64,000 bases of DNA, taken from NCBI RefSeq assembly GCF_003014575.1, contig NZ_PYGF01000006.1:62001-126000 (forward strand), in the 5' to 3' direction. Under the pieces are notes generated by a model. It was not told the DNA's origin. It ran no database searches and saw only the letters and a program-made list of their open reading frames with translations. Both the position numbers and the translations under genes were made by a program. Of the stretch, positions 47,371 through 64,000 are shown one piece after another. Source of the stretch: Cecembia rubra. Lineage in GTDB: Bacteria > Bacteroidota > Bacteroidia > Cytophagales > Cyclobacteriaceae. Positions within the stretch are counted from its first letter, which is position 1. The number at the start of each line of letters is the position of its first letter.

Positions 47371-48771
47371 ATGTCTTCAACAAAATATGATGTGATTGTT
47401 GTAGGGTCAGGTCCCGGAGGGTATGTAGCGGCTATCCGTGCTTCTCAACTGGGTCTGAAAACTGCAGTAGTGGAAGCTGCCGAATTGGGCGGAATCTGTT
47501 TGAACTGGGGTTGTATCCCTACCAAAGCATTGATCAAGAGTGCTCAGGTTTTTGAATACATCAACCATTCGGAAGACTATGGCATCAAAGTAAAAGGTGC
47601 TGAAGTCGATTTCGGGGGCATGATCAAAAGGAGCCGCGACGTGGCTGCCGGTATGTCCAAAGGTATTCAGTTCCTTTTCAAAAAAAACAAAATCGACCAA
47701 TTGTTGGGCTGGGGTAAAGCCCAGCCGGGCAAAAAAGTAGAAGTTGAAGATAAAGACGGAAAGAAGACAGTTTATTCAGCAGACCATATCATCATTGCCA
47801 CCGGTGGTAGAGCCAGAGAACTTCCTGCGCTGAAAATAGACAATGAAAAAATCATTGGCTATCGTAAGGCCATGGTTCTTGAGAAAAAACCTGCCAAAAT
47901 GGTAGTAGTAGGTTCAGGTGCCATAGGTGTTGAATTTGCTTACGTGTATAGTTCCATTGGCACGGAAGTTACCATTGTGGAATTCATGGACAGGATAGTG
48001 CCCAATGAAGATGAGGAAGTATCCAAGGCTTTGGAAAGAATCTACAAGAAAAATGGTGTCAATATCATGACCAGTACCGAAGTGACCGCTGTGGATACCA
48101 AAGGTAAAGGTTGCAAAGTGACCGTTAAGGATAAGAAAGGGAACGAGTCTGTTATCGAATGTGATGTAGTGCTTTCTGCTGTGGGTGTAGTTTCCAATAT
48201 CGAAAATATTGGACTGGAAGATGTTGGAATCCTGGTGGAGAAAGGAAAGATCAAAGTGGATGAGTTCTACAAAACCAATATGCCGGGCTATTATGCCATA
48301 GGTGATGTAACCCCCGGTCCGGCCTTAGCACATGTAGCTTCTGCTGAAGGGATCATCTGCGTGGAGAAAATCGCCGGCCATCATCCTGAGCCATTGGATT
48401 ACAATAACATTCCCGGCTGTACCTATTGTGTGCCTGAAATCGCTTCCGTGGGCTATACCGAAGCAAAGGCCAAAGAAGCAGGTTATGAAGTGAAAGTAGG
48501 TAAATTCCCATTCTCTGCTTCCGGTAAAGCATCAGCTGCAGGGGCCAAAGACGGGTTTGTGAAATTGGTTTTTGACGCGAAGTATGGGGAGCTTTTAGGA
48601 GCCCATATGATCGGGGCCAATGTAACAGAGATGATCGCTGAGATTGTGGCTATCCGTAAATTGGAGACTACAGGTCATGAACTGATCAAGACTGTCCATC
48701 CTCATCCAACTATGTCTGAAGCAGTAATGGAAGCAGCAGCTGCAGCTTATGGTGAAGTGATTCATATTTGA
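47371..48771 (+). CDS. lpdA: Dihydrolipoyl dehydrogenase (E3)
   Basis: 466 aa, full length. FAD motif VGSGPGGYVAA (11-21), redox pair CLNWGC (Cys43/Cys48), NAD motif VVGSGAIGVEFAY (about 176), second FAD contact YAIGDVTPGPALAHVA (about 308) and C-terminal HPHPTMSEAVMEAA with the catalytic His-Glu. It reoxidises lipoamide of 2-oxoacid dehydrogenases or glycine cleavage. TATTTTTG at 47331-47338 could be its -7 box. No E1/E2 genes adjoin. Confidence 0.95.
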   Translation: MSSTKYDVIVVGSGPGGYVAAIRASQLGLKTAVVEAAELGGICLNWGCIPTKALIKSAQVFEYINHSEDYGIKVKGAEVDFGGMIKRSRDVAAGMSKGIQFLFKKNKIDQLLGWGKAQPGKKVEVEDKDGKKTVYSADHIIIATGGRARELPALKIDNEKIIGYRKAMVLEKKPAKMVVVGSGAIGVEFAYVYSSIGTEVTIVEFMDRIVPNEDEEVSKALERIYKKNGVNIMTSTEVTAVDTKGKGCKVTVKDKKGNESVIECDVVLSAVGVVSNIENIGLEDVGILVEKGKIKVDEFYKTNMPGYYAIGDVTPGPALAHVASAEGIICVEKIAGHHPEPLDYNNIPGCTYCVPEIASVGYTEAKAKEAGYEVKVGKFPFSASGKASAAGAKDGFVKLVFDAKYGELLGAHMIGANVTEMIAEIVAIRKLETTGHELIKTVHPHPTMSEAVMEAAAAAYGEVIHI

Positions 48772-48953: not shown

Positions 48954-49679
48954 ATGTCCAATACCAAAGTACCTAAGTCCAGTAAAAATGTCAGGGGTAC
49001 CATTACCTGTGACAATACCACCATCCATTTGCTTCAGGCCAATGATTTTGTGGCAGAGAGTATCCGCAATCAGATGGCGGAAAAAAAAGTGCTGATGATC
49101 AACATCACCTCATCTGCTGGAAGCGGTAAAACCACACTTATGCAAGAAACAGTCAAACGATTAAAGGATGAGATAAGCATGGGTATTCTTGTTGGTGACC
49201 TTGAAACGGAAAGAGATGCAGACCGCATCAAACAAGTAGGAGGGAAAGCTTTGCAAATTGTGACAGGTGGAATTTGCCATTTGGAGGCTCAAATGGTTTG
49301 GCAAGCATTAAAGAGTTTTGACATTTCAGGTTTAGATGTACTCTTCGTCGAAAATGTAGGCAATTTGGTTTGTCCAGCATCTTTTGATCTGGGAGAAGAT
49401 TATCGGGTCACCCTCATTGCCACTACAGAAGGTGACGATAAACCCCAAAAATATCCTAAAATGTTTTTGACCAGTGAATTGATGTTGGTTTCCAAATCTG
49501 ACCTTTTACCTTATCTTCCATTTAGTGTGGAAGCAGTAACAAATGACGCCAGGGCTATTAACCCAAGCATTGAGGTGATTGAAGTTTCATCTGTGGACGG
49601 TACAGGTATTGATGCTTGGTGCGATTGGCTTAAGGCTAAAATCAAGGAAAAAAAATCAGCTGACTCGATTGCTGTATAG
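48954..49679 (+). CDS. hypB: Hydrogenase nickel-insertion GTPase HypB
   Basis: 241 aa. P-loop SSAGSGKT (53-60), GDLETERD (81-88) and the metal-site pair GGICHLEA (Cys108-His109) at the GTPase dimer interface. There is no His-rich nickel-storage stretch and no N-terminal CxxCGC motif, so it is the minimal chaperone form. With HypA it delivers Ni to the large subunit. First gene of the locus; its TAG stop shares one base with the GTG start of hypF. Confidence 0.95.
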   Translation: MSNTKVPKSSKNVRGTITCDNTTIHLLQANDFVAESIRNQMAEKKVLMINITSSAGSGKTTLMQETVKRLKDEISMGILVGDLETERDADRIKQVGGKALQIVTGGICHLEAQMVWQALKSFDISGLDVLFVENVGNLVCPASFDLGEDYRVTLIATTEGDDKPQKYPKMFLTSELMLVSKSDLLPYLPFSVEAVTNDARAINPSIEVIEVSSVDGTGIDAWCDWLKAKIKEKKSADSIAV

Positions 49680-52009
49680 TGCCATTTTGGAGCATTCATA
49701 TTGAAGGACAGGTTCAGGGAGTGGGGTTTAGACCAACTGTTTTACGTGTTGCCTATGCAATGGGTTTGTGCGGTAAGGTTTTCAATACAAACGCCGGAGT
49801 AACCATTGATCTCTTTTGTTCAAAAAGAGAATTAGATGAGTTTTTGAAAAAATTAAGATCCAAGCTTTCATCCCTGGCTGTCATTTCCAAGTTGTGGATC
49901 GAAGAACTTCCTAAGATAGACAGTTTTCCAAATGATTTTTATATTTCACCCTCGCTGCTAGGCGAGAACAAGAGCGCAAATATCAGTCCTGATTTTGGAA
50001 TTTGCCCATCCTGTCAATCAGAGGTATTGAATTCAGAAAATCCCCGCTATTTGTATCCTTTTATTTCCTGTACGCAGTGCGGTCCCAGGTATTCTATTTT
50101 AAATGGTATCCCTTATGACAGGCTTCGCTCTTCCATGGGGCATTTTGAGATGTGTACTTCCTGTGAGGAGGAATATTTGGACTTACAAAACAGGCGTTTT
50201 CACTCCCAAACCAATTCATGTCCTGATTGTCCAATAGATTTGAGGATTTTTCCCGAAACGGATCATACTTTTCCTATGCCTGTTGATCTGATGGATCATG
50301 CAGTAACAATTATCCAATCGGGTGGAATTCTTGCAGTTAAGGGGACAGGCGGGTTTTTATTGCTAACAGATGCAACAAATCCTGATGCAATTCAAATGCT
50401 TAGAAAAAGAAAGCGGAGACCCAGAAAACCTTTAGCTTTGATGGTTCATGATGAAATTATGCTTTCAGATTTTTTCACAGTTTCACATGAAGAAAAAGAG
50501 TTGTTAAGGTCAGCTGCCCGGCCCATTGTGCTTTGCAAACCTAAGAAATATACTGATCTTCATGGCACTCAAGCTTGGGTTGCTCCTGGTCTTTCTCTTT
50601 TAGGTGTGTGTTTGCCTGCAGACCCATTGATGTTCCTTATTTCCAGGAAAGTTGGCAGACCGATTATTGCCACCAGTGGCAATCTTCACCAAAGTCCTTT
50701 ACAGTATAAAGACCAGGAAGCTATTGAAAAACTAATGGGATTTGCCGATGCAATCATTTATCATAATAGGGAAATTTATTTCCCTCAAGATGATAGCGTT
50801 TTTCGGATAGCGGAAAATTCCGGGCAAAAAATAGTTTTGAGAAGAAGCAGGGGCTTGGCTCCGACTTTTTGGAATAAGGTCAGGATAAAAGCTGAACTTC
50901 CTGTTTTGGCATTAGGAGCTGATCTAAAAGGTACTTTTGCACTTTGGGAGGGGCATAATGTTTATGTGAGTCAATACTTAGGAAATCTGGAAAGTTTTGA
51001 TACGCAGGAGAGATATTTGGACACATTGACCAAGTTTTTGGATCTTACCGGCATCCAACCTCAGCAAATATTGATGGATAAGCATCCTTTATACCATAGC
51101 AGAAGGTTTGCTGACAATTTCCCTTATGTAAATGTAACAGAAGTTCCCCACCATGAAGCGCACTTTGCCGCCTTGCTTTGGGAACATGCTGCTCTTGATG
51201 CTGATGAACCTATCTTGGGAGTGATTTGGGATGGGCTGGGATTTGGAAATGATTCAGCTTTATGGGGTTCTGAGTTTTTTGTGTTCCATTCAGGAGCTTT
51301 TGAGCGGGCTTGCTCTTTTGATTATTATGATTATCTCTTGGGGGACAAAATGTCCATTGAACCACGACTTTCAGCTTTGGCTATATGTTACATTTCAGGT
51401 GGAACTCTCGATCTGATTAAAGGAAAATTTTCTTCACAGGAATGGTCCCTCTTTACAAGGATGCTAGATAAAGGGGGCCATGCCCAGACCAATAGCATGG
51501 GAAGGTTGTTTGATGCGGTATCTTCCATCTTGGGGCTTTGTGATTTCAATACGTATGAAGGGGAGGCCGCCATGCTATTGGAACAATTGGCCAGGAACTA
51601 CTTTGACGCGAATGGTCAAGCGGCCATCCAATCTTATTTTATGGATTCCATTGTAAAAGATAAGATTTCGGGTGCTGATTTAATTTCTCAAATAATAAAG
51701 GACAAGTCAAACGGCTTGGATTCAGGCCTTATTGCTGCCAAATTTCATCTGACCTTGGTTCACATCATTTCTCAAGTCATCCAAAATACAGGTTGTAGAA
51801 AAGTAGGATTTTCAGGAGGGGTTTTCCAAAATGCCCTTTTGGTTGATTTGCTCCATCAATACCTGGGAGAAGAATACCAACTGTTATTCCATGAGCAGTT
51901 ACCTCCTAATGACGAGAATATATCCCTAGGCCAAATGGCCTGGTTTCATATAAAAAACAGATCACAAAAACTTAAAATAAAATCTTATGTGCTTGGCGAT
52001 TCCCGGTAA
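49679..52009 (+). CDS. hypF: Carbamoyltransferase HypF
   Basis: 776 aa, full length. Start is GTG at 49679, needed to keep the acylphosphatase strand (SIHIEGQVQGVGFRP). Acylphosphatase domain 1-90; eight zinc Cys in four CxxC pairs (109/112, 131/134, 159/162, 181/184) with canonical 18-24-18 spacing; YrdC-like domain (about 205-385, KGTGGFLL; SGNLHQSP); Kae1-like carbamoyltransferase domain with HHEAH (about 493) and FSGGVFQN (about 716). It makes the carbamoyl group that HypE turns into cyanide for the NiFe site. The gene end overlaps hypC by 23 bp. Confidence 0.97.
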   Translation: MPFWSIHIEGQVQGVGFRPTVLRVAYAMGLCGKVFNTNAGVTIDLFCSKRELDEFLKKLRSKLSSLAVISKLWIEELPKIDSFPNDFYISPSLLGENKSANISPDFGICPSCQSEVLNSENPRYLYPFISCTQCGPRYSILNGIPYDRLRSSMGHFEMCTSCEEEYLDLQNRRFHSQTNSCPDCPIDLRIFPETDHTFPMPVDLMDHAVTIIQSGGILAVKGTGGFLLLTDATNPDAIQMLRKRKRRPRKPLALMVHDEIMLSDFFTVSHEEKELLRSAARPIVLCKPKKYTDLHGTQAWVAPGLSLLGVCLPADPLMFLISRKVGRPIIATSGNLHQSPLQYKDQEAIEKLMGFADAIIYHNREIYFPQDDSVFRIAENSGQKIVLRRSRGLAPTFWNKVRIKAELPVLALGADLKGTFALWEGHNVYVSQYLGNLESFDTQERYLDTLTKFLDLTGIQPQQILMDKHPLYHSRRFADNFPYVNVTEVPHHEAHFAALLWEHAALDADEPILGVIWDGLGFGNDSALWGSEFFVFHSGAFERACSFDYYDYLLGDKMSIEPRLSALAICYISGGTLDLIKGKFSSQEWSLFTRMLDKGGHAQTNSMGRLFDAVSSILGLCDFNTYEGEAAMLLEQLARNYFDANGQAAIQSYFMDSIVKDKISGADLISQIIKDKSNGLDSGLIAAKFHLTLVHIISQVIQNTGCRKVGFSGGVFQNALLVDLLHQYLGEEYQLLFHEQLPPNDENISLGQMAWFHIKNRSQKLKIKSYVLGDSR

Positions 52010-52304
52010 AATAAAAAGTATTGAGACCATGTATGATGGTCTGGTCAGAATGGCTAAGATCCAATTTGGCGGTATTGTAAAACAGGCAAGTCTTGAGATG
52101 GTTCCCCAGGCAAAAGTGGGGGATTATGTGCTTGTCCATGTAGGTGTAGCCATCAGTATTGTGGATGAGGAGGAAGCCAGAAAATCATTCGAATACTTGG
52201 AGATGATTGGTGAGATTGATGAATTGATCGAACATACCCAAACCGATAGGAATGACCTGCCTCCAATCGATTCCAGTAAAAGCCAATCAGCGGATGGTGC
52301 CTAA
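51987..52304 (+). CDS. hypC: Hydrogenase maturation chaperone HypC
   Basis: 105 aa. Starts MCLAIPGKI, with the essential Cys2 that holds the Fe(CN)2CO unit together with HypD. The OB-like fold continues to about residue 85 (VGDYVLVHVGVAISIVDEEEA, abridged). A polar 20-residue tail (THTDRNDLPPIDSS-like) is longer than in most HypC. Translationally coupled to hypF by overlap. Confidence 0.95.
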   Translation: MCLAIPGKIKSIETMYDGLVRMAKIQFGGIVKQASLEMVPQAKVGDYVLVHVGVAISIVDEEEARKSFEYLEMIGEIDELIEHTQTDRNDLPPIDSSKSQSADGA

Positions 52305-52386: not shown

Positions 52387-53493
52387 ATGAAGTACCTATC
52401 GGAATACAGAGATCCTGAATTGGTGAAAAAATATTTGGATGAAATACATCAAAGCACTACAAAACCATGGATCATTATGGAAGTATGTGGAGGTCAGACC
52501 CACAGCATTGTGAAAAACGGATTGCTCCAATTGCTTCCCAAAGAAATTACTATGGTCCATGGACCAGGTTGTCCTGTCTGTGTGACACCGATGCATCTAA
52601 TAGATAAAGCGGTTTATCTGGCATTTAACGAGAGGGTGATTTTATGCTCTTTTGGGGATATGCTAAGGGTACCGGGATCCACAGACAGTTTATTGGAAGC
52701 AAAGTCCAAAGGTGCAGATGTAAGGATATTGTATTCCCCTTTAGAGGCAGTGAAGTTGGCAAAGGATAATCCTGATAAACAGGTGGTATTCTTTGCGGTA
52801 GGTTTTGAGACCACCGCCCCTGCCAATGCCCTTTCTGTGCTTCATGCCCACAGAGAGGGTTTGAAAAATTACTCCATTCTGGCTTCTCATGTACTTGTTC
52901 CACCAGCCATAGATGCAGTAATGAATGATGATTTGGTCAAAATCCAGGGCTTTCTTGCAGCAGGACATGTATGTACAATCATGGGAATCGGGGAATATCG
53001 GCCACTTGTCAATAAATACCAGGTGCCTATTGTTGTTACAGGATTTGAGCCTGTAGATATTTTGCATGGGATTTTGATGGTTGTGAAGCAGTTGGAGAAG
53101 GGCGAGTCTAAACTGGAAAACCAATACGCCAGGGTAGTCAGACCTGATGGCAACCCGGAGGCAAGAAAAGTGATTGAAGAAATTTTTGAAATTACCGATA
53201 GGGAATGGAGAGGAGTAGGAAATATACCCTTAAGTGGATATCAGGTTAAAGAAAAGTATGCTGCATTTGATGCCAATAAAAAATTTGCAATTAAAATGCC
53301 CAAAGTGGAGGAAAACCCGGAATGTATTGCAGGTCAGGTGTTGAAAGGTATAAAAAAACCACACGAATGCCCTCAGTTTGGAAAAGGATGTAATCCTGAG
53401 AGACCACTTGGTGCGCCAATGGTAAGTAGCGAAGGTGCTTGCGCGGCGTATTACCATTTTTCCAAAATCAGCGGTCAGGTAATGGAAGCCTAG
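52387..53493 (+). CDS. hypD: Hydrogenase Fe-cofactor assembly protein HypD
   Basis: 368 aa. Conserved Cys motifs: [10 protein letters not shown] (Cys34) and [11 protein letters not shown] (Cys62, Cys65), plus GFETTAP (about 140), GHVCTIMG (about 195) and C-terminal 4Fe-4S Cys in [22 protein letters not shown] and EGACAAYY. HypD is the scaffold on which Fe(CN)2CO is built with HypC and HypE. An 82-bp gap separates it from hypC without a visible terminator. Confidence 0.96.
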
Positions 53494-53520: not shown

Positions 53521-54582
53521 ATGTCGGAATATAAAAGTATTTTATCATCCTCCTGCCCCATGCCCAAGCTTGATTTTGAGATCATTACCATGGGGCATGG
53601 CAGTGGAGGCTTGCTTACCCACAAACTTTTAGATGCAGGAGTATTTGATGTGCTTTCCAATGAATACCTAGATAAGCAGCATGACGGCGCTGTCTTTGAA
53701 GTTACTCCGGGAAAGATGGCTTTTACTACGGATAGCTATGTGGTTTCTCCGATATTTTTCCCTGGAGGAAATATCGGTGAATTGGCGATCAACGGTACTG
53801 TGAATGACCTTTGCATGTGTGGGGCAAAAGCAGCTTTTATTTCCTTATCTTTTATCATTGAAGAAGGCTTGCGTGTCAGTGATTTTTGGGAAATCTTATT
53901 GCATATCAAGCAAGCAGCAGATCATGCCGGGGTCAAAATAGTAACTGGGGATACCAAGGTGGTAGAGCGTGGAAAAGGAGATAAGATTTTTATCAATACA
54001 AGTGGAGTGGGGAAGGTGCATCCAAAAGCGGATATTTCGGTTGACCGAATCAAAACAGGGGATAAGGTGATTATTTCCAATGATATTGCAAGGCATGGTA
54101 TAGCCATTATGAGTGTCAGGGAGGGCTTGGAATTCGAATCGGATATCGAAAGCGATACTTGTCATTTCAATACGATTATTGAGCAGCTTTTGGAGGATTT
54201 TGGCAAGGGGATTCACTTTTTAAGGGATGCTACCAGAGGTGGATTGTCTACCATTTTGAATGAGGTATCAAAGTCTTTGTTGAAAGGAATTGCCATTCAC
54301 CAAAAAGACATCGTTGTAGATGAATCAGTTGCAGGAGCTTGTGAATTATTAGGTTTAGATCCACTATATGTAGCCAATGAAGGGGTTTTTGTAGCATTTG
54401 TAGAAGCCTCCATCGCAGATCAAGTGGTCCAAAAATTAAAAAATTGGGAGAATGGAATACATGCAGCAGTGATTGGAGAAGTAATTGATGGTCATCCTGG
54501 TCAGGTGGTTTTGCATAGTCAAATCGGAGGAAGAAGGGTTGTCAATATGCTGGTAGGGGAACAATTGCCGAGAATTTGTTGA
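53521..54582 (+). CDS. hypE: Carbamoyl dehydratase HypE
   Basis: 353 aa. PurM-like ATP-binding fold: GHGSGGLLTHKL (about 23), TTDSYVVSPIFFPGG (about 72), NGTVNDLCMCGA (about 90) and RDATRGGL (about 234). It ends in PRIC, the C-terminal Cys353 that accepts the carbamoyl group from HypF and is dehydrated to thiocyanate. Followed after 1 bp by the NHL-repeat gene. Confidence 0.96.
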   Translation: MSEYKSILSSSCPMPKLDFEIITMGHGSGGLLTHKLLDAGVFDVLSNEYLDKQHDGAVFEVTPGKMAFTTDSYVVSPIFFPGGNIGELAINGTVNDLCMCGAKAAFISLSFIIEEGLRVSDFWEILLHIKQAADHAGVKIVTGDTKVVERGKGDKIFINTSGVGKVHPKADISVDRIKTGDKVIISNDIARHGIAIMSVREGLEFESDIESDTCHFNTIIEQLLEDFGKGIHFLRDATRGGLSTILNEVSKSLLKGIAIHQKDIVVDESVAGACELLGLDPLYVANEGVFVAFVEASIADQVVQKLKNWENGIHAAVIGEVIDGHPGQVVLHSQIGGRRVVNMLVGEQLPRIC

Positions 54583-54583
54583 T

Positions 54584-55753
54584 ATGGATGATAAGAAACC
54601 AAATATAGCGCTGAATATTACCCTGAAAAGAGCTGTAGCTCCTTCCCTGAGTCCCGGTAAGAAAGTTCCGGTAATTGAGGGTTCAAATAGGGTTTTTTTA
54701 GGTGACCCAGGGAGTCCATTTCTTGCCCCGAGGGGAGTGTATGTACATGGCAACAAACTGCTGGTTTCTGATACCGGACAGAATAGGGTTTTCATTTGGC
54801 ATCAGATTCCAGCGCGAGAACAACAAAAACCAGATTTAGTCATAGGGCAATCTGATTTAAAGAATACCGGTAGAAATGAAGGGGGAGAGGCTTCTGCTCA
54901 ATCCCTTCAATATCCTTCGGCAGTATGGACAGATGGGAGAAGCTTAATTGTAGCAGATGCTTGGAACCATAGGGTATTGATTTGGAAGCAATTTCCCGAG
55001 CAAAATCATCAACCTGCAGATGTTGTCTTGGGTCAGGAGGATTTTCGGGGAAACCTGCCCAATAGAAAAGGAGTGAATTCAGAGCCTTCTGCTGACTCCC
55101 TTTATTGGCCTTATGGGATAGCTGTATTTGATGAAAAATTATTTGTGGCTGATACTGGTAATAGAAGGGTATTGGTTTTTAATCAAATCCCGGAGTTGTC
55201 AGGTCAGGCAGCCGATTCGGTTATTGGCCAGGAAAATTTTGAAAGTAGAAGCTATGATCCAGACAATGCCATATGGCCCTATGGAGTTGCCCTTGGGCCA
55301 AAAGGAGAATTGGCCATCACAGATACACAGTACTATAGGGTCCTCCTCTGGGATCATTGGGAAGATTCGATGAATCAACAGGCTAAGTGTCTTGTTGGCC
55401 AACCCAACTTTGAATCCAATGGGCAAAACCAATTTGGTTTATCTCCTGGTCCACATACATTGAATTGGTGTTATTTTGCCGGCTTTTTTAAGGAGGGACT
55501 TTTTGTTAACGATACGGGAAATTCAAGAATTCTTTGGTTTGAAAAAGTCCCCAAATCTCATGGAGTTTCTGCAGATGCTCTGATAGGTAAGCCGGATTTT
55601 TATACGGGCAGTGAATTTGGGGACACAATATTTGGTACTGAAAAATCTTTGTATTGGCCTTTTAGTTTTAGTATATTTCCTGAAAGGCATCAAATGGTTA
55701 TAGCCGATACAGGTAATCACCGAATTGTGTTATATGATTTACTGATTTCTTAA
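54584..55753 (+). CDS. NHL-repeat beta-propeller protein of the hydrogenase locus
   Basis: 389 aa, no signal peptide, so cytoplasmic. Six NHL-type blades are visible: NKLLVSDTGQNRVFIW (about 62), RSLIVADAWNHRVLIW (about 119), EKLFVADTGNRRVLVF (about 181), GELAITDTQYYRVLLW (about 240), EGLFVNDTGNSRILWF (about 304) and HQMVIADTGNHRIVLY (about 367). A DVVLGQxxF-like phrase between blades repeats. It probably forms a closed six-bladed propeller acting as a protein-interaction platform. Its place between hypE and hypA, 1 bp after hypE, implies a role in maturation or assembly. Similar NHL genes accompany some group 2a hydrogenase operons (from memory, not checked). Confidence 0.85.
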   Translation: MDDKKPNIALNITLKRAVAPSLSPGKKVPVIEGSNRVFLGDPGSPFLAPRGVYVHGNKLLVSDTGQNRVFIWHQIPAREQQKPDLVIGQSDLKNTGRNEGGEASAQSLQYPSAVWTDGRSLIVADAWNHRVLIWKQFPEQNHQPADVVLGQEDFRGNLPNRKGVNSEPSADSLYWPYGIAVFDEKLFVADTGNRRVLVFNQIPELSGQAADSVIGQENFESRSYDPDNAIWPYGVALGPKGELAITDTQYYRVLLWDHWEDSMNQQAKCLVGQPNFESNGQNQFGLSPGPHTLNWCYFAGFFKEGLFVNDTGNSRILWFEKVPKSHGVSADALIGKPDFYTGSEFGDTIFGTEKSLYWPFSFSIFPERHQMVIADTGNHRIVLYDLLIS

Positions 55754-55764
55754 AGATTCAATTT

Positions 55765-55971
55765 ATGAATGCAACTCAAAGGTTACTGGAAATGATGGAA
55801 CAATTTGACCTGCCGGTTTTGGTTCAACGCGAAAAACAAATTGAAACGCAACATGGCTATGTAATTGAGGTGGAGGGCCCAGGCCTATATAAGCTTATCC
55901 ATCTGGGGGATGTCATCGCACCTTTTGATAATCTAGAAGAACTATGTGGATTTATCAAAACTTACAGTTGA
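55765..55971 (+). CDS. 68-aa protein of the hydrogenase locus
   Basis: Small soluble protein, acidic (MNATQRLLEMMEQFDLP start; GYVIEVEGPGLYKLIHLGDVI core, abridged). Predicted helix, four short strands, helix. No Cys or metal motif. It lies 11 bp after the NHL gene and directly abuts the next start (TGAATG), so it is certainly translated in this operon. No family recognised. Confidence 0.75.
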   Translation: MNATQRLLEMMEQFDLPVLVQREKQIETQHGYVIEVEGPGLYKLIHLGDVIAPFDNLEELCGFIKTYS

Positions 55972-56547
55972 ATGGGGGATAAATCAGAATTGGTTGAGGT
56001 TTTTATTGTAGCTATGTCTCCAAGTAAAAATCTGCCAAGTAAATTTGCATTAATTTTGGAGGATTTGGATAAGAAAAACAGATTCCCATTACTTATAGGA
56101 GAGGCAGAAGCTTTGTCCATAGGGGTTGCCTTGGAGCAGATTAAAACAAAGAGGCCACTCACCCATGACCTTTTTTTTGATGTGGTGAATTTGTTTCATG
56201 CCAAAGTGGAACATGTTTGGATCAAGGAAGTCAAGGATAGTATTTTTTGGAGTGAAATTATTTTCAGGACGGCGGATCAAAAGGAGATGAGGGTGGACAG
56301 CAGGACCTCTGACGCCATTGCTTTGGCTTTGAGATTTGATAGCCCGATCCTGATTTCGAGACGGCTTTTGGAAGAACAACGCATAGATATGGAAATTTAT
56401 ATTGGTGAAAGCAATAGAACTGCTTTTTCTTCTTATACCTTGCAAGAGTTGGAAAAACTCCTGCAAAAGGTATTGGAAAAGGAAGATTATCAAAGCGCTG
56501 TCAGGATAAGAGAGGCAATTGCAAAGAGAAAAAACATCAATCATTAA
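55972..56547 (+). CDS. DUF151 (bifunctional nuclease family) protein with UVR-like C-terminus
   Basis: 191 aa. Residues about 6-130 match the bifunctional-nuclease-type domain: FALILEDLDKKNRFPLLIGEAEALSI (abridged; LPILIG-type strand), THDLFFDVVNLFHAKV (abridged) and RVDSRTSDAIALALRFDSPI (abridged; SRPSDAIALALR-type signature). Residues about 155-185 (LEKLLQKVLEKEDYQSAVRIREAI, abridged) form a UVR-like helical hairpin. Plant and bacterial relatives have been reported as nucleases, but activity here is unproven. Position between the NHL pair and hypA ties it to hydrogenase expression or assembly. Confidence 0.85.
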   Translation: MGDKSELVEVFIVAMSPSKNLPSKFALILEDLDKKNRFPLLIGEAEALSIGVALEQIKTKRPLTHDLFFDVVNLFHAKVEHVWIKEVKDSIFWSEIIFRTADQKEMRVDSRTSDAIALALRFDSPILISRRLLEEQRIDMEIYIGESNRTAFSSYTLQELEKLLQKVLEKEDYQSAVRIREAIAKRKNINH

Positions 56548-56550
56548 AAT

Positions 56551-56898
56551 ATGCATGAAATTTCATTGGTCAAAAACATATTTGGATCTCTTGACGCTGT
56601 ATATCCGGAAAAGGATAGAAAAAAGATCAAAAAGATCCACATGAAGGTTGGGCTCCTTTCAAATGTCGAGCCCATTCTGATGCAGAATGCTTTTGAAGCA
56701 GTTGTAGCTACTGAGAGAAAAGAGTACATTGATTGTAAACTTTATATTGAAGTATTGCCTATTTTAGTGCATTGTGATGAATGCAATAAAGAGTCGGAGG
56801 TGGTGAATTATAAGTTTGTTTGCTCTTGTAATAAACCCACCAATAAGGTAATCCAAGGGAATGAGTTGTTGATTTCAGGTGTTGAATTCCTGGAGTGA
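56551..56898 (+). CDS. hypA: Hydrogenase nickel chaperone HypA
   Basis: 115 aa. N-terminal MHEISLVKNIF with Ni ligand His2-Glu3. The zinc site is CDEC (about 74-77) followed by CSC (about 91-93) rather than the usual second CxxC, so the last pair is one residue shorter. Works with HypB to insert Ni. 3 bp after the DUF151 gene. Confidence 0.92.
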   Translation: MHEISLVKNIFGSLDAVYPEKDRKKIKKIHMKVGLLSNVEPILMQNAFEAVVATERKEYIDCKLYIEVLPILVHCDECNKESEVVNYKFVCSCNKPTNKVIQGNELLISGVEFLE

Positions 56899-56967: not shown

Positions 56968-57594
56968 ATGACTAAAAAAGACACCAAATCAAGAATTAAA
57001 GATGTAGCCTTAGAGCTTTTCAATAGAGATGGCTTCGTCAATGTACGGTTACAACATATATCAGATGTTTGCGGACTAAGTTTGGGCAATATTGGTTACC
57101 ATTTCCGAACAAAAAACGATATCCTATATGCCTTATTCAGTGATTTTTTGGAGGAGCAAAAACTCTTGCTATCAGAATTTAGGGTTTTACCACTTTTTGA
57201 AGATTTTAATCGGTTCTTAAATTCAAATTTTGAGTTACAAAAGCGGTATGTATTCTTTTATAAAGACGCTTTGGACTTGACAAGGTTGTATGAAAATATA
57301 TCAAAAAAATACAGAGAACATTTAAACTGGCAAGAATTACAATTGCAAGGAATGTTGGTTTTCAACGAAGCAAGAGGGGCATTGGATTCCAAAGGAATTC
57401 AGGATTTTACACAAAAAATGTCCTCACTTTTAGTTTGGGCCAGTGAAAGTTGGATCAGTAGGCAGGCAGTAACAGGTGCGGAGGAATTAGATAAGTGCAG
57501 CTATCTGGAAATGGTTTGGTTTTTGTTGAAGCCTTACTTTACTGAAACTGGCGAAGAAGAGTTTGAAAACAGGGTCGTTATTTGTGAAAGATGA
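56968..57594 (+). CDS. TetR-family regulator 1
   Basis: 208 aa. N-terminal TetR HTH (about 8-54): IKDVALELFNRDGFVNVRLQHI (abridged), LSLGNIGYHFRTKNDILYALF (abridged) with the recognition helix SLGNIGYHF. The C-terminal ligand-binding half is helical and aromatic (RYVFFYKDALDLTRLYENI). It ends GEEEFENRV, like TetR 2, and the two align through the HTH, so they look like paralogues. Overlaps the 120-aa gene by ATGA. Candidate repressor of hyp and hup promoters. Confidence 0.85.
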   Translation: MTKKDTKSRIKDVALELFNRDGFVNVRLQHISDVCGLSLGNIGYHFRTKNDILYALFSDFLEEQKLLLSEFRVLPLFEDFNRFLNSNFELQKRYVFFYKDALDLTRLYENISKKYREHLNWQELQLQGMLVFNEARGALDSKGIQDFTQKMSSLLVWASESWISRQAVTGAEELDKCSYLEMVWFLLKPYFTETGEEEFENRVVICER

Positions 57595-57953
57595 AAAAAT
57601 ATCTGGTTTTAGATTTTCAAGTGTATAATTGGCTGCTCCGCTCCATTAATCAATTATCACTTTATGAGGATAGATTGGGGGATGAGTCGGAGTTTAGTTT
57701 TTTGAGATCCAACGAATGGCTTGGAGACACAGCCGTCATAGATAGGTTGATCTACAGAAGAGGAGAATTCAGAATAGATCTTATTTTTGCACATCATAAA
57801 CAACCGCTTAAATTCTTGGTGAGGAATATTACTGTCCAATCAGACAGAAAAAAGGCAGAAATTATGTCCCAGTTATTTAGACGACAGGCGGCAAAAGATC
57901 AGAGGGGAACATTGATGATTCAAGAGGGGTTATTAAATTTAGATTATAATTAA
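57591..57953 (+). CDS. 120-aa protein between two TetR regulators
   Basis: Soluble, basic C-terminal half (SDRKKAEIMSQLFRRQAAKDQ), N-terminus MKKYLVLDFQVYNWLLRSIN. Overlaps tetR 1 by 4 bp and precedes tetR 2 by 11 bp, so all three are co-transcribed. No known domain recognised; possibly a small partner of the regulators. Confidence 0.7.
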   Translation: MKKYLVLDFQVYNWLLRSINQLSLYEDRLGDESEFSFLRSNEWLGDTAVIDRLIYRRGEFRIDLIFAHHKQPLKFLVRNITVQSDRKKAEIMSQLFRRQAAKDQRGTLMIQEGLLNLDYN

Positions 57954-57964
57954 CAGCGAGTAAA

Positions 57965-58579
57965 ATGTCCAAGACTAAAGATAGAATCTTAGAAGCTTCC
58001 ATAAGCACATTTAACGAACATGGGGTAGCCAATGTAAGGCTGCAACAGATAGCGGATGCTGCAGATATTAGTGTTGGTAACTTAGCCTATCATTTTAAAA
58101 ACAAAGAAGCAATAGTTTCATATGTTTATGACTTTATTTTTAGTGAATTTTCCGAAATATTGTCCGATTATCTTTTTATAGAGAATTTTCAAGGACTGGA
58201 TAGAAACTTTGAGCAATACTATGCTTTCTTCATGAAATACCGCTTTTTTTTCACAGATATGTTTGAGATAGAACGCAATTATCCAGATATCTTGGAGAAA
58301 TGGCACAAGTATTCCAACCGTATGCTTTTACAGGTTAAATCCAGAATAGAATTTGATGTTCAGCGCGGTGTTCTTGTTCCTCAATCGGATGAAATGAATG
58401 AGTTACTTTCCAGTAATATTTGGATGTCCATTATTTTTTGGTTACCTCAAAGAATATTAAGGGGACTGCCGGCCGAGGAGAAACTTTTCAAAGAGGCAGT
58501 CTGGAGTCAAATGACCCCTTATCTCACAGACAGGGGAGAAGAAGAGTTTGTAGTTTATATTTATCCTGTTCTTATCTAA
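57965..58579 (+). CDS. TetR-family regulator 2
   Basis: 204 aa. TetR HTH at about 5-50 (RILEASISTFNEHGVANVRLQQI, abridged; DISVGNLAYHFKNKEAIVSYV, abridged). C-terminal half helical, rich in Phe/Tyr (FEQYYAFFMKYRFFFTDMFEI, abridged), ending DRGEEEFVVYIY. Paralogue of TetR 1 by motif pattern. Its gene lies directly upstream of the hupS control region with its cluster of TTTCTAA/TTAGAAA half-sites, making it a prime candidate to bind there. Confidence 0.85.
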   Translation: MSKTKDRILEASISTFNEHGVANVRLQQIADAADISVGNLAYHFKNKEAIVSYVYDFIFSEFSEILSDYLFIENFQGLDRNFEQYYAFFMKYRFFFTDMFEIERNYPDILEKWHKYSNRMLLQVKSRIEFDVQRGVLVPQSDEMNELLSSNIWMSIIFWLPQRILRGLPAEEKLFKEAVWSQMTPYLTDRGEEEFVVYIYPVLI

Positions 58580-58772: not shown

Positions 58773-58837
58773 TTTTTAGAAAAAAATTTCTAAATATTAG
58801 AAAAAATATTCAAATAAAATTAGGAAACCCTTTCTAA
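58773..58837 (+). promoter_or_regulatory. Operator cluster upstream of hupS
   Basis: Four half-sites in 65 bp: TTAGAAA (58776-58782), TTTCTAA (58787-58793), TTAGAAA (58797-58803) and TTAGGAAA/TTTCTAA (58820-58827 and 58831-58837). The middle pair forms TTTCTAA-ATA-TTAGAAA. The 23 bp from 58773 match the hypB site in 22 positions. The last half-site overlaps the predicted -33 of hupS. Confidence 0.7.
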
Positions 58838-58941: not shown

Positions 58942-59922
58942 ATGGCAAACGTTCTTTGGTTGCAAGGAGGGGCATGTAGTGGTAACACCATGTCTTTTTT
59001 AAATGCAGAGGAGCCAACTGTAGTAGAATTGGTCACTGATTTTGGTGTCAATATTCTCTGGCATCCTTCTATAGGTCTGGAAATTGGTCATCAGGTATCT
59101 GATCTTTTGGAAAGCATTGTTGCTGGAAAAACCCAATTGGATATTCTGGTTTTTGAAGGTTCAATCGTACAAGGACCCAATGGAACCGGTACAATGAATT
59201 ATTTTGCTGAAAGGCCAATGATGGACTGGATAAAAGATTTGTCCAAAGTTTCAGGTTATGTGGTAGCCATAGGTGATTGTGCAACATGGGGAGGAATTCC
59301 CGCAGTTCCGCCAAATCCTTCTGAAAGTACAGGTATGCAATTCCTTAAAAAACAAAAAGGAGGGTTCTTAGGGGCAGATTATGTTTCCAAAGGAGGGCTG
59401 CCTGTAATCAATATTCCCGGATGTCCCGCCCATCCTGATTGGATTACCCAGATTTTAGTGGCCATTTCCACAGGAAGGATTGGAGATGTATTATTGGACG
59501 AGTTTCATCGGCCTAAAACCTTTTTCACAGATTTTGTTCAAACAGGATGTCCAAACGCTATTTCTTTTGCCCAAAAAGTGGATGGTCAGTTTGGCAAGCG
59601 AGGCGGATGCTTATTTTACGAGGTAGGCTGTAGAGGTCCTATGACCAGGGCCAGTTGTAACCGGATTTTGTGGAACCGTCAATCCAGTAAAACCAGGGCA
59701 AACCATCCTTGCTTAGGATGTACAGAGCCAGGATTTCCTCACAATGACCTCGTTAAAGGCTCTGTATTCAAAACCATGAAATATTTGGGTTTTTTGCCAA
59801 AGTCAGTCCCGGCAGGTAATACCAAAGCAGGGTACTATGCGAGAGCCGGATTTGAAAAAGCAATGGGTACCCTGGATAAAGTGGTCGTAGGAACAAGGCC
59901 TCAATTTGATAGCTCAAAATAA
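58942..59922 (+). CDS. hupS: [NiFe]-hydrogenase small subunit, group 2a-like
   Basis: 326 aa, no Tat signal: the protein starts MANVLWLQGGACSGN, so the enzyme stays in the cytoplasm. Proximal cluster ligands visible: Cys12, Cys113 (GDCATWGG) and Cys161 (GCPAHPDW), with only one Cys in the N-terminal motif where most hydrogenases have two. Further ligands: His189, Cys203, Cys223, Cys230, and Cys239, Cys257, Cys260. This pattern resembles cyanobacterial HupS and mycobacterial HucS (group 2a), and Huc is known to use three 3Fe-4S clusters. It relays electrons from the NiFe site to an acceptor not identified here. Confidence 0.93.
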   Translation: MANVLWLQGGACSGNTMSFLNAEEPTVVELVTDFGVNILWHPSIGLEIGHQVSDLLESIVAGKTQLDILVFEGSIVQGPNGTGTMNYFAERPMMDWIKDLSKVSGYVVAIGDCATWGGIPAVPPNPSESTGMQFLKKQKGGFLGADYVSKGGLPVINIPGCPAHPDWITQILVAISTGRIGDVLLDEFHRPKTFFTDFVQTGCPNAISFAQKVDGQFGKRGGCLFYEVGCRGPMTRASCNRILWNRQSSKTRANHPCLGCTEPGFPHNDLVKGSVFKTMKYLGFLPKSVPAGNTKAGYYARAGFEKAMGTLDKVVVGTRPQFDSSK

Positions 59923-59930
59923 CCATAGTA

Positions 59931-61523
59931 ATGTCAACATACAAAGAATTGAATATATCGCCAGTCGGACGTGTAGAAGGAGACTTGGACGTAAAAGTGT
60001 ATATGGAAAACGGGGTAGTGACCAGAGCACATACCCAGGCAGCAATGTTCCGTGGTTTTGAACAAATCATGGCAGGAAAGGACCCTCAATCCGGACTTAT
60101 TGTTACCCCAAGAATTTGTGGAATATGTGGTGGTTCACACCTTTATTGTGCTTCTTCTGCTTTGGATACTATTTGGAAGACCCAGCTCACTCCCAATGCT
60201 TTACTTTTGAGGGCAATTGGTCAAGCTGCTGAAACCATTCAAAGTATTCCAAGATGGTTCTATGCCATTTTTGCTACTGATATGGCCAATAAAAAGTTTG
60301 CCAATAAGCCGCTCTATGAAGAAGTGACCAAAAGATTTTCAGCCTATGTGGGCACTTCCTTTCAAATTGGCTTAACAGCTTCTGCTTTACCTGTAGAGGT
60401 CTATGCAATTTTCGGAGGACAATGGCCACATTCTTCTTACATGGTGCCAGGAGGAGTAATGTGTGCCCCGACCTTAAAAGACATCACTAGAGCACACGCT
60501 ATTCTTAACCATTTTAGAAACAGGTGGTTGGAAACAACCTTCCTTGGCTGCTCTATTGAAAGGTATTTGCAAATAAAATCCTGGGATGATATGTTGGCAT
60601 GGGTAGAGGAAAATGAAAGCCAAAGAAATAGTGATTTGGGACTGTTTATCAGGGCAGGTCTTGAATTTGGATTGGATAAATTTGGTCAGGGAGTAGGCAA
60701 GTTCATTGCTTATGGTACCTACTTGCATAAGGATAAATATAATTTCCCAACTATTGAGGCGAGGAATGAGGCAGTTATTTCGCCTGGAGGATTTTATGAT
60801 GGATCTAAATTTCACAGCTTAAACCATCTGGATATTCAGGAACATGTCGACCATGCTTGGTACAAGCAAGTGCCACCAGCACATCCATGGGATGAACCTA
60901 TTCCGACACCTGTACCCTCTCAGAATTTAGAAAATACAGACTTTTCTGGAAAATATAGCTGGTCCAAAGCACCTAGGTACATGGGTTTCGCTGCTGAAGC
61001 AGGGCCATTATCCAGGGTGATTATGGCAGGCAATCCTGATAATTTGGATCACCAAAACAGAGATCCTTTGTTTTTGGATATCATGGACAAATTGGGACCT
61101 TCTGTATTTACAAGAACTTTGGCAAGGCTGCACGAAGCGCCACGCCTATATGAATACCTTAATCAATGGCTGGGCCAGATTGACCTAGATGGAGAATTCT
61201 ACATCAAGCCAGAGGAAAGAGATGGGAAAGGATGGGGAGCAACTGAAGCAGCCCGAGGTGCTTTGGCACATTGGGTGGAGATCAAAAATGGGGTGATTGA
61301 AAACTATCAGGTGATGGCACCGACCACATGGAATGTGGGACCAAATGATGGTCAGGGAAATCCTGGTCCTATTGAAGCTGCGCTTGAAGGAACTGAAATC
61401 GAAGATCCGCATGATCCTGTTGAAGTGGGTATGGTCGCCAGGTCCTTTGACAGCTGTCTGGTATGTACGGTTCATGCCCATGATGGAAAGAGTGGAAAAG
61501 AATTGACCAAGTTTAAATTGTAA
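59931..61523 (+). CDS. hupL: [NiFe]-hydrogenase large subunit, group 2a-like
   Basis: 530 aa. N-terminal NiFe ligands RICGICGGSH (Cys63, Cys66) after GRVEGD. C-terminal ligands DSCLVCTVH (Cys509, Cys512) with a 15-residue tail AHDGKSGKELTKFKL to be cut off after His515 by the maturation protease. The position before Cys509 is Ser, not the Pro of many other groups. It starts 8 bp after hupS. H2 oxidation is the expected direction for this group; high affinity is possible but cannot be read from sequence. Confidence 0.95.
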   Translation: MSTYKELNISPVGRVEGDLDVKVYMENGVVTRAHTQAAMFRGFEQIMAGKDPQSGLIVTPRICGICGGSHLYCASSALDTIWKTQLTPNALLLRAIGQAAETIQSIPRWFYAIFATDMANKKFANKPLYEEVTKRFSAYVGTSFQIGLTASALPVEVYAIFGGQWPHSSYMVPGGVMCAPTLKDITRAHAILNHFRNRWLETTFLGCSIERYLQIKSWDDMLAWVEENESQRNSDLGLFIRAGLEFGLDKFGQGVGKFIAYGTYLHKDKYNFPTIEARNEAVISPGGFYDGSKFHSLNHLDIQEHVDHAWYKQVPPAHPWDEPIPTPVPSQNLENTDFSGKYSWSKAPRYMGFAAEAGPLSRVIMAGNPDNLDHQNRDPLFLDIMDKLGPSVFTRTLARLHEAPRLYEYLNQWLGQIDLDGEFYIKPEERDGKGWGATEAARGALAHWVEIKNGVIENYQVMAPTTWNVGPNDGQGNPGPIEAALEGTEIEDPHDPVEVGMVARSFDSCLVCTVHAHDGKSGKELTKFKL

Positions 61524-61634: not shown

Positions 61635-62135
61635 ATGAAAAAAACTGCCATTCTCGGCTTTGGTAATCCTGTGAGAAGTGATGATGCTGTAGGCTGTGAG
61701 GTGATTCGCTTATTAAAAGAAAAGTTGGATCCAGTTCCTGAAATCCTTACGATTATTGATATGGGGACTTCTGCCTTTGAGGTTTTATTTTCCCTTAAGC
61801 ATCATGACAGGATATTGCTCATAGATGGAGTTATTAATTCTGGACAAGAAGACGGGAGTCTTTTTAAATTGCCTGCAGAGGAGATTCAAGCTGCTATACA
61901 AGATGATCCTATGGTATTTCTTCATAGTCTCAAGTGGGACCAAGCCCTCTCTTATGCCAAAAAAATTATGCAGAATGATTTCCCTAAGGATAACATCACA
62001 GTGTACTTGGTCTCTATTACAGATACCAGGTTAAGCGTTGGCATGTCAGCCATCATTCAACAATCTGCGTACCATCTGGCCAATAAAATTATTGATGACT
62101 TAGAACTCTTTGAAAACAATGGAAAGGGCCTTTGA
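61635..62135 (+). CDS. hupD: Hydrogenase large-subunit maturation endopeptidase
   Basis: 166 aa. GFGNPVRSDDAVG (8-20) with metal-binding Asp16, Asp64 (LLIDGV) and His97 (FLHSLKWD), matching the three Ni-sensing ligands of HybD/HupW-type proteases. It removes the HupL C-terminal tail after Ni insertion. The end overlaps the next gene by 26 bp. Confidence 0.92.
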   Translation: MKKTAILGFGNPVRSDDAVGCEVIRLLKEKLDPVPEILTIIDMGTSAFEVLFSLKHHDRILLIDGVINSGQEDGSLFKLPAEEIQAAIQDDPMVFLHSLKWDQALSYAKKIMQNDFPKDNITVYLVSITDTRLSVGMSAIIQQSAYHLANKIIDDLELFENNGKGL

Positions 62136-62493
62136 TTTCAATCAAAATATTCCACAGCAATCCAAAATACTGGATACTCCTGTTCAGCTTCATAATCTAC
62201 ATTTGATTATTCAACATGAATTGGCGAATCGGCTTATTGGGGAGGAAATGCAGGCATATGCGGCAATGATGCCCGAAGCAAAAAAAATACTTTTGACAAA
62301 AGCCAGTAATATTGCATTTAAGGCAAAGTATAAACCCATCATGCTATTTGTCAAACAAAAAAATACTCATGGGGATAAATCAATTTCCTTACAGGAATTT
62401 TTCGCTGATCACCCTGATTTATCTCAAGATAATCAGGCACTGAAATTCAGTTTTGAAGATAAAGAAGCTATTTTAGAAATACATATTATATGA
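62110..62493 (+). CDS. 127-aa protein downstream of the maturation protease
   Basis: Soluble, no Cys, no signal. Starts MKTMERAFDFNQNIPQQ (ATG at 62119 is an alternative). Contains a helical middle (LIIQHELANRLIGEEMQAYA, abridged) and a C-terminal strand EAILEIHII. Overlaps hupD by 26 bp and the TPR gene by ATGA, so it belongs to the hydrogenase operon. No known family recognised. Confidence 0.7.
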   Translation: MKTMERAFDFNQNIPQQSKILDTPVQLHNLHLIIQHELANRLIGEEMQAYAAMMPEAKKILLTKASNIAFKAKYKPIMLFVKQKNTHGDKSISLQEFFADHPDLSQDNQALKFSFEDKEAILEIHII

Positions 62494-64000
62494 TTAAGAT
62501 ATTCTGCCACATTGGCTTATGGGAAGAAATAAAGGATGCTGTTTATTTCGGTTTTCAACTTCAAGATTGGATTGCTTTTGCGGATATAGAGACAATGAAG
62601 CCATCAGCCTCTGCTAACCACTTAATCGTGGATAAAGGTTATATTATCCTGCCGGTAGATTGGCAAAATGCAATGCCTCCTTATCTGCTTCCCGAGAAAA
62701 TTTTATTCAATGAAAAGGTACTTTTGGCCTTGGTCATGATAAGATTGGGAGAATTTGAGAAATCCTTACAACTTATTTCATTTTCTCCTACACTAAAAGC
62801 TGAATTTCAAATTATAATTGATTTGATGGAAGGTGGTGAAATAGACCCTCAACTACTTTCTGTAGAGACTTATCAGGAATTTGATGATTATAGACTAATG
62901 CATAATCATGCAGTGATAAGACATTATGGCCATGTGACAAATCCCTCCAAAGTAGACTATTACTACCAGGAAGCTACGATGTCCGCTCCAACTGAGGAAT
63001 ATGCTGCATTTTCAGCATTTCATTATTTCAATTATCTGTTTGATGAAGGAAGATTTTCCGAAGCTGAAGGACAGTTGAGAAGAATCCAAACAGCAGAAGT
63101 TTCCCAGGAAGGAAAAATGAAAATCCAGGCAGCATTGGCCCATTTATCCACACAATTGTTAAGCCCTCCTTATGATAAAGAAGGACTGACAACCCTGAAA
63201 GATAAGTTGTGGCAATGCCTTACCTACTATGAGATTCATGGGTTTAAAGTAGAAGAAGCACAATGTCTTTTGGACGCTGGTTTGATAGCAAACTTTTCTG
63301 AAAGTTTTGCTGAGGCACTGGGTTATTATACCAAAGCAGTCAAACTTTTTCAAGAAGAGGGCATGGAAGAATTTGCCTACCAAGCCTTGTTGCAAAAGGC
63401 GAGATTGCTAACTATTTGGGCTCAAAAAGGTAACCCTCAGTTCTTTAAACCAGCCATGGAAGCCTATCAGCAGGCCAGTAGATTTTTCACTAAGGAATAT
63501 TTTCCAGTGGCTTATGCAGAAATTCAAGAAAGCTTAGGGATCATTTATTCAGAAATCCCTGATGAAGTGAAAAAGAAAAGTGTGTGGGCGGCAGTTTCTG
63601 CCTCATCATTTGCAGAGGCATTGACCATTTTCACAAAAGAAGACTTTCCTTACGATTATGCGAGAGTTTGTAGCCATTATGGCAATGCCTTGATGAAATA
63701 CCCACAAGCAGTAAGATCAGATAATTTTGTAAAAGCACTAAGCTATTTTCAAGAGGCTTTGGCTGTCAGGGATGCAGAAAATTTTCCGGTTGAAAGAAGT
63801 ATCACAATCCTGAATTTCTTAGAAGCTTCTTGGTATGCCGATAATTCTAATGATGAAAATAATCCTGGCAGGCTTTATGAGATGCAGTTGAGGATCGACG
63901 AATTGATAGCTATTAATGCAGGTGAAGAATTTGTACAGGAGGCCAAGCTGCATCAAGAAAAATTGAACCAACTTAAAAGCATAATTGCAGAAGAAGGAAA
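62490..64000 (+). CDS. TPR-repeat protein of the hydrogenase locus (incomplete, runs off the window)
   Basis: At least 503 codons with no stop before position 64000. The start ATG overlaps the stop of the 127-aa gene. N-terminal 90 residues are non-repetitive (MIKIFCHIGLWEEIKDAVYF, abridged). From about 190 on there are helix-pair repeats such as FNYLFDEGRFSEAEGQLRRI, FSESFAEALGYYTKAVKLFQEEG (abridged) and DNFVKALSYFQEALAVRD: tetratricopeptide-like, a protein-protein scaffold. Probably a hydrogenase-specific assembly or anchoring factor. C-terminus unknown. Confidence 0.85.
   Translation, partial: MIKIFCHIGLWEEIKDAVYFGFQLQDWIAFADIETMKPSASANHLIVDKGYIILPVDWQNAMPPYLLPEKILFNEKVLLALVMIRLGEFEKSLQLISFSPTLKAEFQIIIDLMEGGEIDPQLLSVETYQEFDDYRLMHNHAVIRHYGHVTNPSKVDYYYQEATMSAPTEEYAAFSAFHYFNYLFDEGRFSEAEGQLRRIQTAEVSQEGKMKIQAALAHLSTQLLSPPYDKEGLTTLKDKLWQCLTYYEIHGFKVEEAQCLLDAGLIANFSESFAEALGYYTKAVKLFQEEGMEEFAYQALLQKARLLTIWAQKGNPQFFKPAMEAYQQASRFFTKEYFPVAYAEIQESLGIIYSEIPDEVKKKSVWAAVSASSFAEALTIFTKEDFPYDYARVCSHYGNALMKYPQAVRSDNFVKALSYFQEALAVRDAENFPVERSITILNFLEASWYADNSNDENNPGRLYEMQLRIDELIAINAGEEFVQEAKLHQEKLNQLKSIIAEEG

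Follow-up and report, generated by a model that had tools for sequence, protein, structure and literature searches.

The 64-kb window analyzed here, a stretch of 64,000 nucleotides from the Cecembia rubra contig NZ_PYGF01000006.1, encodes on its forward strand the small subunit HucS (58942-59922, ATG at 58942, 326 amino acids) and the large subunit HucL (59931-61523, 530 amino acids) of a group 2a (Huc-type) [NiFe]-hydrogenase. The enzyme belongs to a Bacteroidota clade that retains the menaquinone-site residues of Huc from Mycobacterium smegmatis and in which, as sampled, neither HucM nor full-length HucE, the two partners of Huc, was detected. We consider it probable that HucSL is a cytoplasmic uptake hydrogenase that feeds its electrons directly to menaquinone, probably down to trace H2, without HucM and HucE. 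Huc is the model for bacterial energy gain from atmospheric H2; with a conserved clade that has the same core and the same quinone-site residues and neither partner, one can test directly what is essential in the system, and named isolates within the clade (Algoriphagus, Cecembia, Runella, Spirosoma and others) make such a test practical.

When HucS was compared with all solved structures, M. smegmatis Huc came out on top (7uur_D, E 5.5e-134, 450 bits), the next-best structure family following at E 5e-34 and 121 bits. The same was found for HucL (7uus_A, E 5.1e-197, 659 bits; next-best family E 1.3e-57, 199 bits), which is 58% identical to its homologue from Mycobacterium intracellulare, 54-56% to those from Thermus, Sulfobacillus, Sphingopyxis and Bradyrhizobium and about 33% to HoxC and HoxG from Cupriavidus. 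The first-pass annotation of this DNA had placed the enzyme in group 2a, and the phylogeny of HucL agrees. In a tree of 42 rows, obtained with a quick IQ-TREE run (short search) and with some long outgroup branches that leave the deep order unsure, all 26 Bacteroidota rows fall into a single clade (SH-aLRT, the Shimodaira-Hasegawa-like approximate likelihood ratio test, 98) within group 2a (SH-aLRT 96), and group 2a is separate from groups 2b and 1. The plasmid rows owe their 2a label to the M. intracellulare row, which matches Huc, and to Sphingopyxis alaskensis, the enzyme of which is termed 2a in PMC10305171. A HucL from a record titled Rickettsiales bacterium NP5 (L060) also falls inside the Bacteroidota clade and perhaps stems from a misbinned contig.

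HucL carries the nickel-binding CxxC motifs RICGIC and, C-terminally, DSCLVCTVH, which is followed by a tail of 15 residues (AHDGKSGKELTKFKL), as had been noticed before, and a maturation protease gene adjoins. These features bear on the proposal that HucSL is a regulatory H2 sensor of group 2b, another kind of enzyme within group 2, with which it would share the cytoplasmic site. We hold this to be next to impossible: the tree separates HucL from HoxC and HupV, and the compared HupV ends at the His and is tailless, whereas HucL has both the tail and the protease gene.

That hucS and hucL are chance open reading frames is excluded because both frames are uninterrupted, both proteins score above their Pfam family cut-offs and the order hucS-hucL is kept in 83 of 83 related loci (in about ten of which hucS is fragmentary or broken). 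The two proteins also match hydrogenase models of NCBIfam, made for other groups, though only below cut-off. The host genome (4.75 Mb, 99.97% complete) gave a single match to [NiFe]-hydrogenase large subunits, HucL itself, and none to 16S rRNA. The closest named HucL records (95-97% identity) are mostly from Cecembia, Pararhodonellum, Algoriphagus, Cyclobacterium and similar genera; among 395 genomes drawn across the phylum, HucL matches with E values of at most 1e-150 were obtained in 5, one of which is the own genome.

Both the class of the enzyme and its occurrence in the phylum had been described already. In 2020 a Bacteroidota-associated HucL radiation was published, with 34 Bacteroidota genomes counted and with the remark that H2 oxidation was previously unreported for various Bacteroidota lineages (PMC7784904); group 2a in Bacteroidota is therefore not new and not in itself surprising. 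That radiation, of the same class and phylum, is presumably identical with the clade described here.

HucS begins with MANVLWLQGGACSGN, in which no Tat or other signal peptide is visible, and has a single Cys (Cys12) at the position of the CxxC in standard [NiFe] small subunits; both had been read correctly in the first-pass annotation. Its ligand residues are Cys12/Asn15, Cys113 and Cys161 at the proximal cluster, Cys239/257/260 at the medial cluster and Gln200/Cys203/Cys223/Cys230 at the distal cluster, where the assignment of each Cys to its cluster is one that we assume from standard enzymes. All of them recur in each of the nine group 2a small subunits aligned. Asn15 replaces a Cys of the standard CxxC, and Gln200, which had been passed over so far, replaces the standard distal His (aligned against a NiFeSe enzyme). 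Among the Bacteroidota loci whose rows span the motif concerned, GGACSGN is found in 75 of 75 and the distal Gln in 83 of 83. The ligand set had been called Huc-like before; that stands, and it extends to all three clusters, the distal one too. Huc contains three [3Fe-4S] clusters, as shown by cryo-electron microscopy and electron paramagnetic resonance (PMC10017518). With Huc-type ligands at all three positions, three [3Fe-4S] clusters are therefore expected in HucS as well.

In Huc, menaquinone is bound by Tyr301, Tyr229 and the backbone of Lys212 (PMC10017518). The counterparts in HucS, counted in the printed alignment, are Tyr298, Tyr226 and Lys212, and they are common to the nine aligned group 2a small subunits. 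Within Bacteroidota, Tyr298 is kept in 84 of 84 complete tails and Tyr226 in 83 of the 84 HucS that cover it, the exception (L072) having Phe. The host genome also encodes MenD. The electron acceptor, which the first-pass annotation had left open, can thus be narrowed: the tyrosines together with MenD point to menaquinone.

Huc of M. smegmatis has two partner proteins, HucM and HucE. In the published Huc mechanism a tube formed by HucM carries menaquinone over 94 Å to the enzyme; HucE is a NifU plus Rieske protein (PMC6883350). The first-pass annotation had seen no HucM-like stalk in the window and had overlooked the absence of HucE. A search with the Pfam family DUF1641 found no HucM-like gene anywhere in the own genome, the window included, and none in 20 whole Bacteroidota genomes. 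These count as 19 distinct ones, since the matches in two of them, G046 and G063, lie at identical coordinates and the two are apparently one genome. Three of three HucM-bearing plasmids, taken as positive controls, did match, and the DUF1641 protein of M. intracellulare matches the solved HucM (7uus_Q, E 2.9e-34). The earlier observation on HucM thus holds for the own genome and the sampled clade.

For full-length HucE the same 20 genomes gave no match, whereas it was found in four of four control plasmids, which also supplied rows of the profile, and in three of three further operons outside the profile. Each of the 20 genomes has HucE-profile matches, all of them unlinked and confined to either the NifU or the Rieske part; those of the own genome fall on contigs other than that of huc. 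Searched against the loci, the HucM profile matched three and the HucE profile six, which are exactly the source operons, and neither matched any of the 85 Bacteroidota loci or the window; 61 of 83 Bacteroidota loci extend at least 5 kb past hucL, into the region that holds HucE in other operons. The latter comprise nine non-Bacteroidota operons, all on plasmids (Actinomycetota 1, Deinococcota 1, Bacillota 1, Alphaproteobacteria 6), a set from which cyanobacterial, Nitrospira, Chloroflexus and Gemmatimonas operons are absent. HucE is present in all nine and HucM in three: the operons of M. intracellulare, Thermus and Sulfobacillus have both a HucM-type and a NifU-Rieske gene, and the six alphaproteobacterial ones have the NifU-Rieske gene and no HucM. 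According to PMC7784904, hucL in general often has hucE nearby; none of the Bacteroidota loci has it. HucM and full-length HucE are thus undetected in the Bacteroidota huc clade as sampled. That the clade is without both we did not find stated in print, in a search that did not cover supplementary figures, among them the one showing the operons in PMC7784904.

The C-terminus of HucS differs along the same line. All nine non-Bacteroidota small subunits end with PxWxxEDxFV; seven of these are distinct, Sphingopyxis and Novosphingobium sharing one HucS accession and Roseovarius and Octadecabacter another. None of the 85 Bacteroidota HucS, 84 of them with complete tails, has the motif. In its place, 84 of the 85 have a lineage-specific stretch that ends with SK, SI or NK, the exception being L064, a broken gene with a broken tail. 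Alphaproteobacteria without HucM but with HucE have kept PxWxxEDxFV. This would fit a tie of the motif to HucE, not to HucM, a suggestion at most, given that three clades are compared.

In the mechanism that we favor, H2 would be split at the [NiFe] site of HucL, and the electrons would pass via the three [3Fe-4S] clusters of HucS to menaquinone beside the distal cluster and from there into aerobic respiration, as a supplement while the cells grow heterotrophically. Without HucM and HucE the quinone would need some other route to the HucS site, for which the lineage-specific HucS tail is the sole candidate found. This leads to a more specific version, which we put forward tentatively and with some doubt: a stripped-down Huc that passes electrons of trace H2 straight to menaquinone, the HucS tail bringing the quinone site to the membrane or holding a different oligomer together. 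If this version were true, the tube and the Rieske relay would be add-ons, not the core of atmospheric H2 oxidation. That the tail forms an amphipathic helix was considered and found no support: its hydrophobic moment is not above that of shuffled sequences, of which 169, 124, 218 and 150 out of 500 reached it for four Bacteroidota tails. An AlphaFold model of HucS has a low-confidence helix at residues 295-315.

Several points speak against direct reduction of menaquinone by a partner-free, high-affinity enzyme. In M. smegmatis, deletion of HucE abolishes Huc activity staining; an enzyme without HucE might therefore work differently. MenD shows only the capacity for menaquinone synthesis, and a membrane-binding role of the HucS tail is backed by nothing beyond the conservation of the tail. 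The AlphaFold model, calculated with 33 Bacteroidota sequences, has a mean pLDDT (predicted local distance difference test score) of 50 and was not used for the ligands. In print we found no Bacteroidota group 2a enzyme that had been tested for H2 uptake.

The HucE requirement in M. smegmatis lends itself also to a different explanation, namely that HucS delivers its electrons not directly to menaquinone but to an Fe-S protein of Rieske, NifU-like or other type, encoded at an unlinked site, that has replaced HucE. The unlinked NifU- or Rieske-part matches in each of the 20 genomes and the loss of the HucS motif common to HucE-bearing operons would fit. We nevertheless regard this as rather unlikely: the unlinked matches span one part of HucE each, those of the own genome lie off the huc contig, and the quinone-site tyrosines are kept. 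Furthermore, a crude clustering of the open reading frames of the 85 loci (60 largest clusters) brought up no other Fe-S protein or cytochrome that is widely conserved next to the huc genes. Apart from the window's own genes it returned mostly frames that look antisense or shifted, plus a hydrophobic family from 29 loci, which is taken from its sequence to be a nickel permease.

Direct transfer to menaquinone being retained as the probable course, the next question is down to which concentration H2 would be used. H2 consumption at sub-atmospheric concentrations is reported for the group 2a enzyme of M. smegmatis and those of the three species studied in PMC7784904, and likewise for the group 2a enzyme of Sphingopyxis alaskensis (PMC10305171). 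None of these enzymes is from Bacteroidota. On the S. alaskensis huc plasmid (NC_008036; 28.5 kb, searched whole, the chromosome not being searched) DUF1641 had no match. The absence of HucM alone is therefore no argument against high affinity, and HucM is probably dispensable for it. This cannot be extended to HucE, since both tested organisms that could be checked have it, M. smegmatis according to the literature and Sphingopyxis by its sequence.

The residues of the gas channel give a mixed picture. E15, I64, S104, His166 and R443 of Huc are kept in HucL, and the bottleneck residue Leu112 of Huc is Ile. Among the kept positions, HoxG of group 1d differs from Huc only at I64 and S104; most of them are therefore non-diagnostic. 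The Ile at the bottleneck speaks for a mid-affinity uptake hydrogenase that uses locally enriched rather than atmospheric H2, as do the possible effects of the missing partners on the kinetics and the fact that the enzymes of reported affinity stem from outside the Bacteroidota clade. However, the cluster ligands are of Huc-type, the other checked gas-channel residues are the same, and sub-atmospheric H2 is reached by group 2a enzymes from several phyla, including one encoded on a plasmid without HucM. We consider mid-affinity rather unlikely and oxidation of trace H2 with high affinity likely, plausible as it is by analogy with these enzymes. The Bacteroidota examined in PMC10305171 carry group 1l, and one of them, Robiginitalea, showed no substantial H2 consumption, so that a hydrogenase gene alone is no proof of uptake. 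Should H2 uptake in the clade extend to below the atmospheric level, the biological H2 sink would gain one more group of heterotrophs.

The H2 most likely comes from outside the cell, since the 20 Bacteroidota genomes gave no match to nitrogenase and none to [FeFe]-hydrogenase, and the own genome has HucL as its single [NiFe] large subunit. In cyanobacteria the reported role of group 2a is the recycling of H2 from nitrogenase; HupSL belongs to group 2a as well (PMC7784904) and works with a nitrogenase. With no internal source matched, recycling of H2 from a nitrogenase or a fermentation is very improbable for HucSL.

Among the closest systems described is Huc from M. smegmatis (PDB 7uus, 7uur; PMC10017518). 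It is alike in being the best match, in the quinone tyrosines, in the position of His166 and in the processed C-terminus, and it differs by having HucM and HucE, for which (HucE at full length) the genome analyzed here gave no match. In addition, the HucS C-terminal motif is replaced at the present locus, and a TetR pair and an operator lie alongside. The S. alaskensis operon (PMC10305171), of the same class and likewise without HucM on its plasmid, differs by HucE and by four small proteins: as in other alphaproteobacterial group 2a operons, two related Cys-rich small proteins are encoded after hucL (L114, 11686-12395) and two very small hydrophobic ones before HucE (L114, 14286-14731). Three of the four were tested against Pfam and had no match, and none of the four had a credible match in the Bacteroidota loci (best E 0.077); they are possibly lineage-specific partners.

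Upstream of hucS, on the same strand, lies a set of hyp and accessory genes: hypB for nickel insertion (48954-49679, TIGR00073, E 5.4e-77), hypF for the carbamoyltransferase (49679-52009, TIGR00143, E 3.6e-195), hypC (51987-52304, TIGR00074, E 8.7e-23), hypD (52387-53493, TIGR00075, E 5.3e-153), hypE (53521-54582, TIGR02124, E 5e-125) and a gene for a hypA-like nickel chaperone (56551-56898, TIGR00100, E 8.1e-16, under the family cut-off). Between hypE and the latter are found an NHL-repeat protein (54584-55753, PF01436), a 68-amino acid protein of not known function (55765-55971) and a bifunctional-nuclease-domain (BFN) protein (55972-56547, PF02577, E 4.6e-33). Homologues of the three were detected by tblastn in 52, 20 and 25 of 83 Bacteroidota loci, respectively, which are lower bounds, several loci being short. 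The NHL-repeat protein is a usual companion of group 2a genes and is also annotated in operons of other phyla. Just upstream of hypB a dihydrolipoyl-dehydrogenase-type flavoprotein is encoded (47371-48771, TIGR01350, E 3.4e-171); most compared loci end before it.

Downstream of hucL follow, again on the forward strand, hucD for the maturation protease (61635-62135, TIGR00072, E 6.5e-26), h127 for a conserved small protein (62110-62493, start codon uncertain) and a gene for a TPR protein (62490-64000) that runs just beyond the window and encodes 505 amino acids in L103. The Hyp set, HucD, h127, the TPR and NHL proteins and h120, a small conserved huc accessory protein (57591-57953, forward strand) recognized by a hidden Markov model (HMM) of its own family, would serve the assembly of the hydrogenase. 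An HMM of the TPR protein built from three other phyla matches 83 sources, Bacteroidota loci included. The h120 HMM matches the M. intracellulare huc operon after the protease gene (L111, 14369-14716, E 2.3e-10) and has no match in L125-L127; among Bacteroidota, h120 lies between the TetR genes, as here, after h127, or in both places. The homologues of h120 and of the TPR protein sit in HucM-bearing operons too, and both were dropped as substitutes for HucM.

The h127 family was found in 82 of the sources searched, the window included, and adjoins the protease gene where found. Its matches outside Bacteroidota are weak (E 0.00023 in Octadecabacter, 0.0057 in Roseovarius and 0.12 in M. intracellulare), so that h127 was mostly dropped as a HucM substitute, with less certainty. 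The predicted structure of h127 (pLDDT 90.8) has an MraZ-like fold, odd for a hydrogenase accessory protein: VIA-align gave Z 7.3-7.8 for MraZ, below the caution line of 8 of the tool, and 3.8 for the next fold, and Foldseek gave no match under E 0.001.

The two TetR-family regulators are encoded at 56968-57594 and 57965-58579 (forward strand; both PF13972, PF00440), and between them and hucS lie the palindromes TTAGAAA-N4-TTTCTAA (58776-58793) and TTAGGAA-N4-TTTCTAA (58820-58837). The palindrome TTAGRAA-N4-TTTCTAA is present upstream in 56 of the 75 Bacteroidota loci with 300 bases of upstream sequence; all 77 sites have a spacer of 4, though 2 to 8 were allowed, and their density is 3.42 per kb upstream versus 0.030 elsewhere in the same loci. 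In nine loci of other phyla none was found. Among the 66 loci with 2.5 kb of upstream sequence, 48 have both the palindrome and a TetR gene, nine neither, seven only the TetR gene and two only the operator (Fisher p 1.3e-5, relatedness uncorrected). The palindromes are likely the shared operator of Bacteroidota huc operons, and the TetR pair, acting on those at 58776-58837, would control the operon. Exact half-sites with a 5-base spacer occur also at 18118-18136 (TTAGAAAGGGACTTTCTAA), inside the open reading frame 18068-19201, far from the huc genes.

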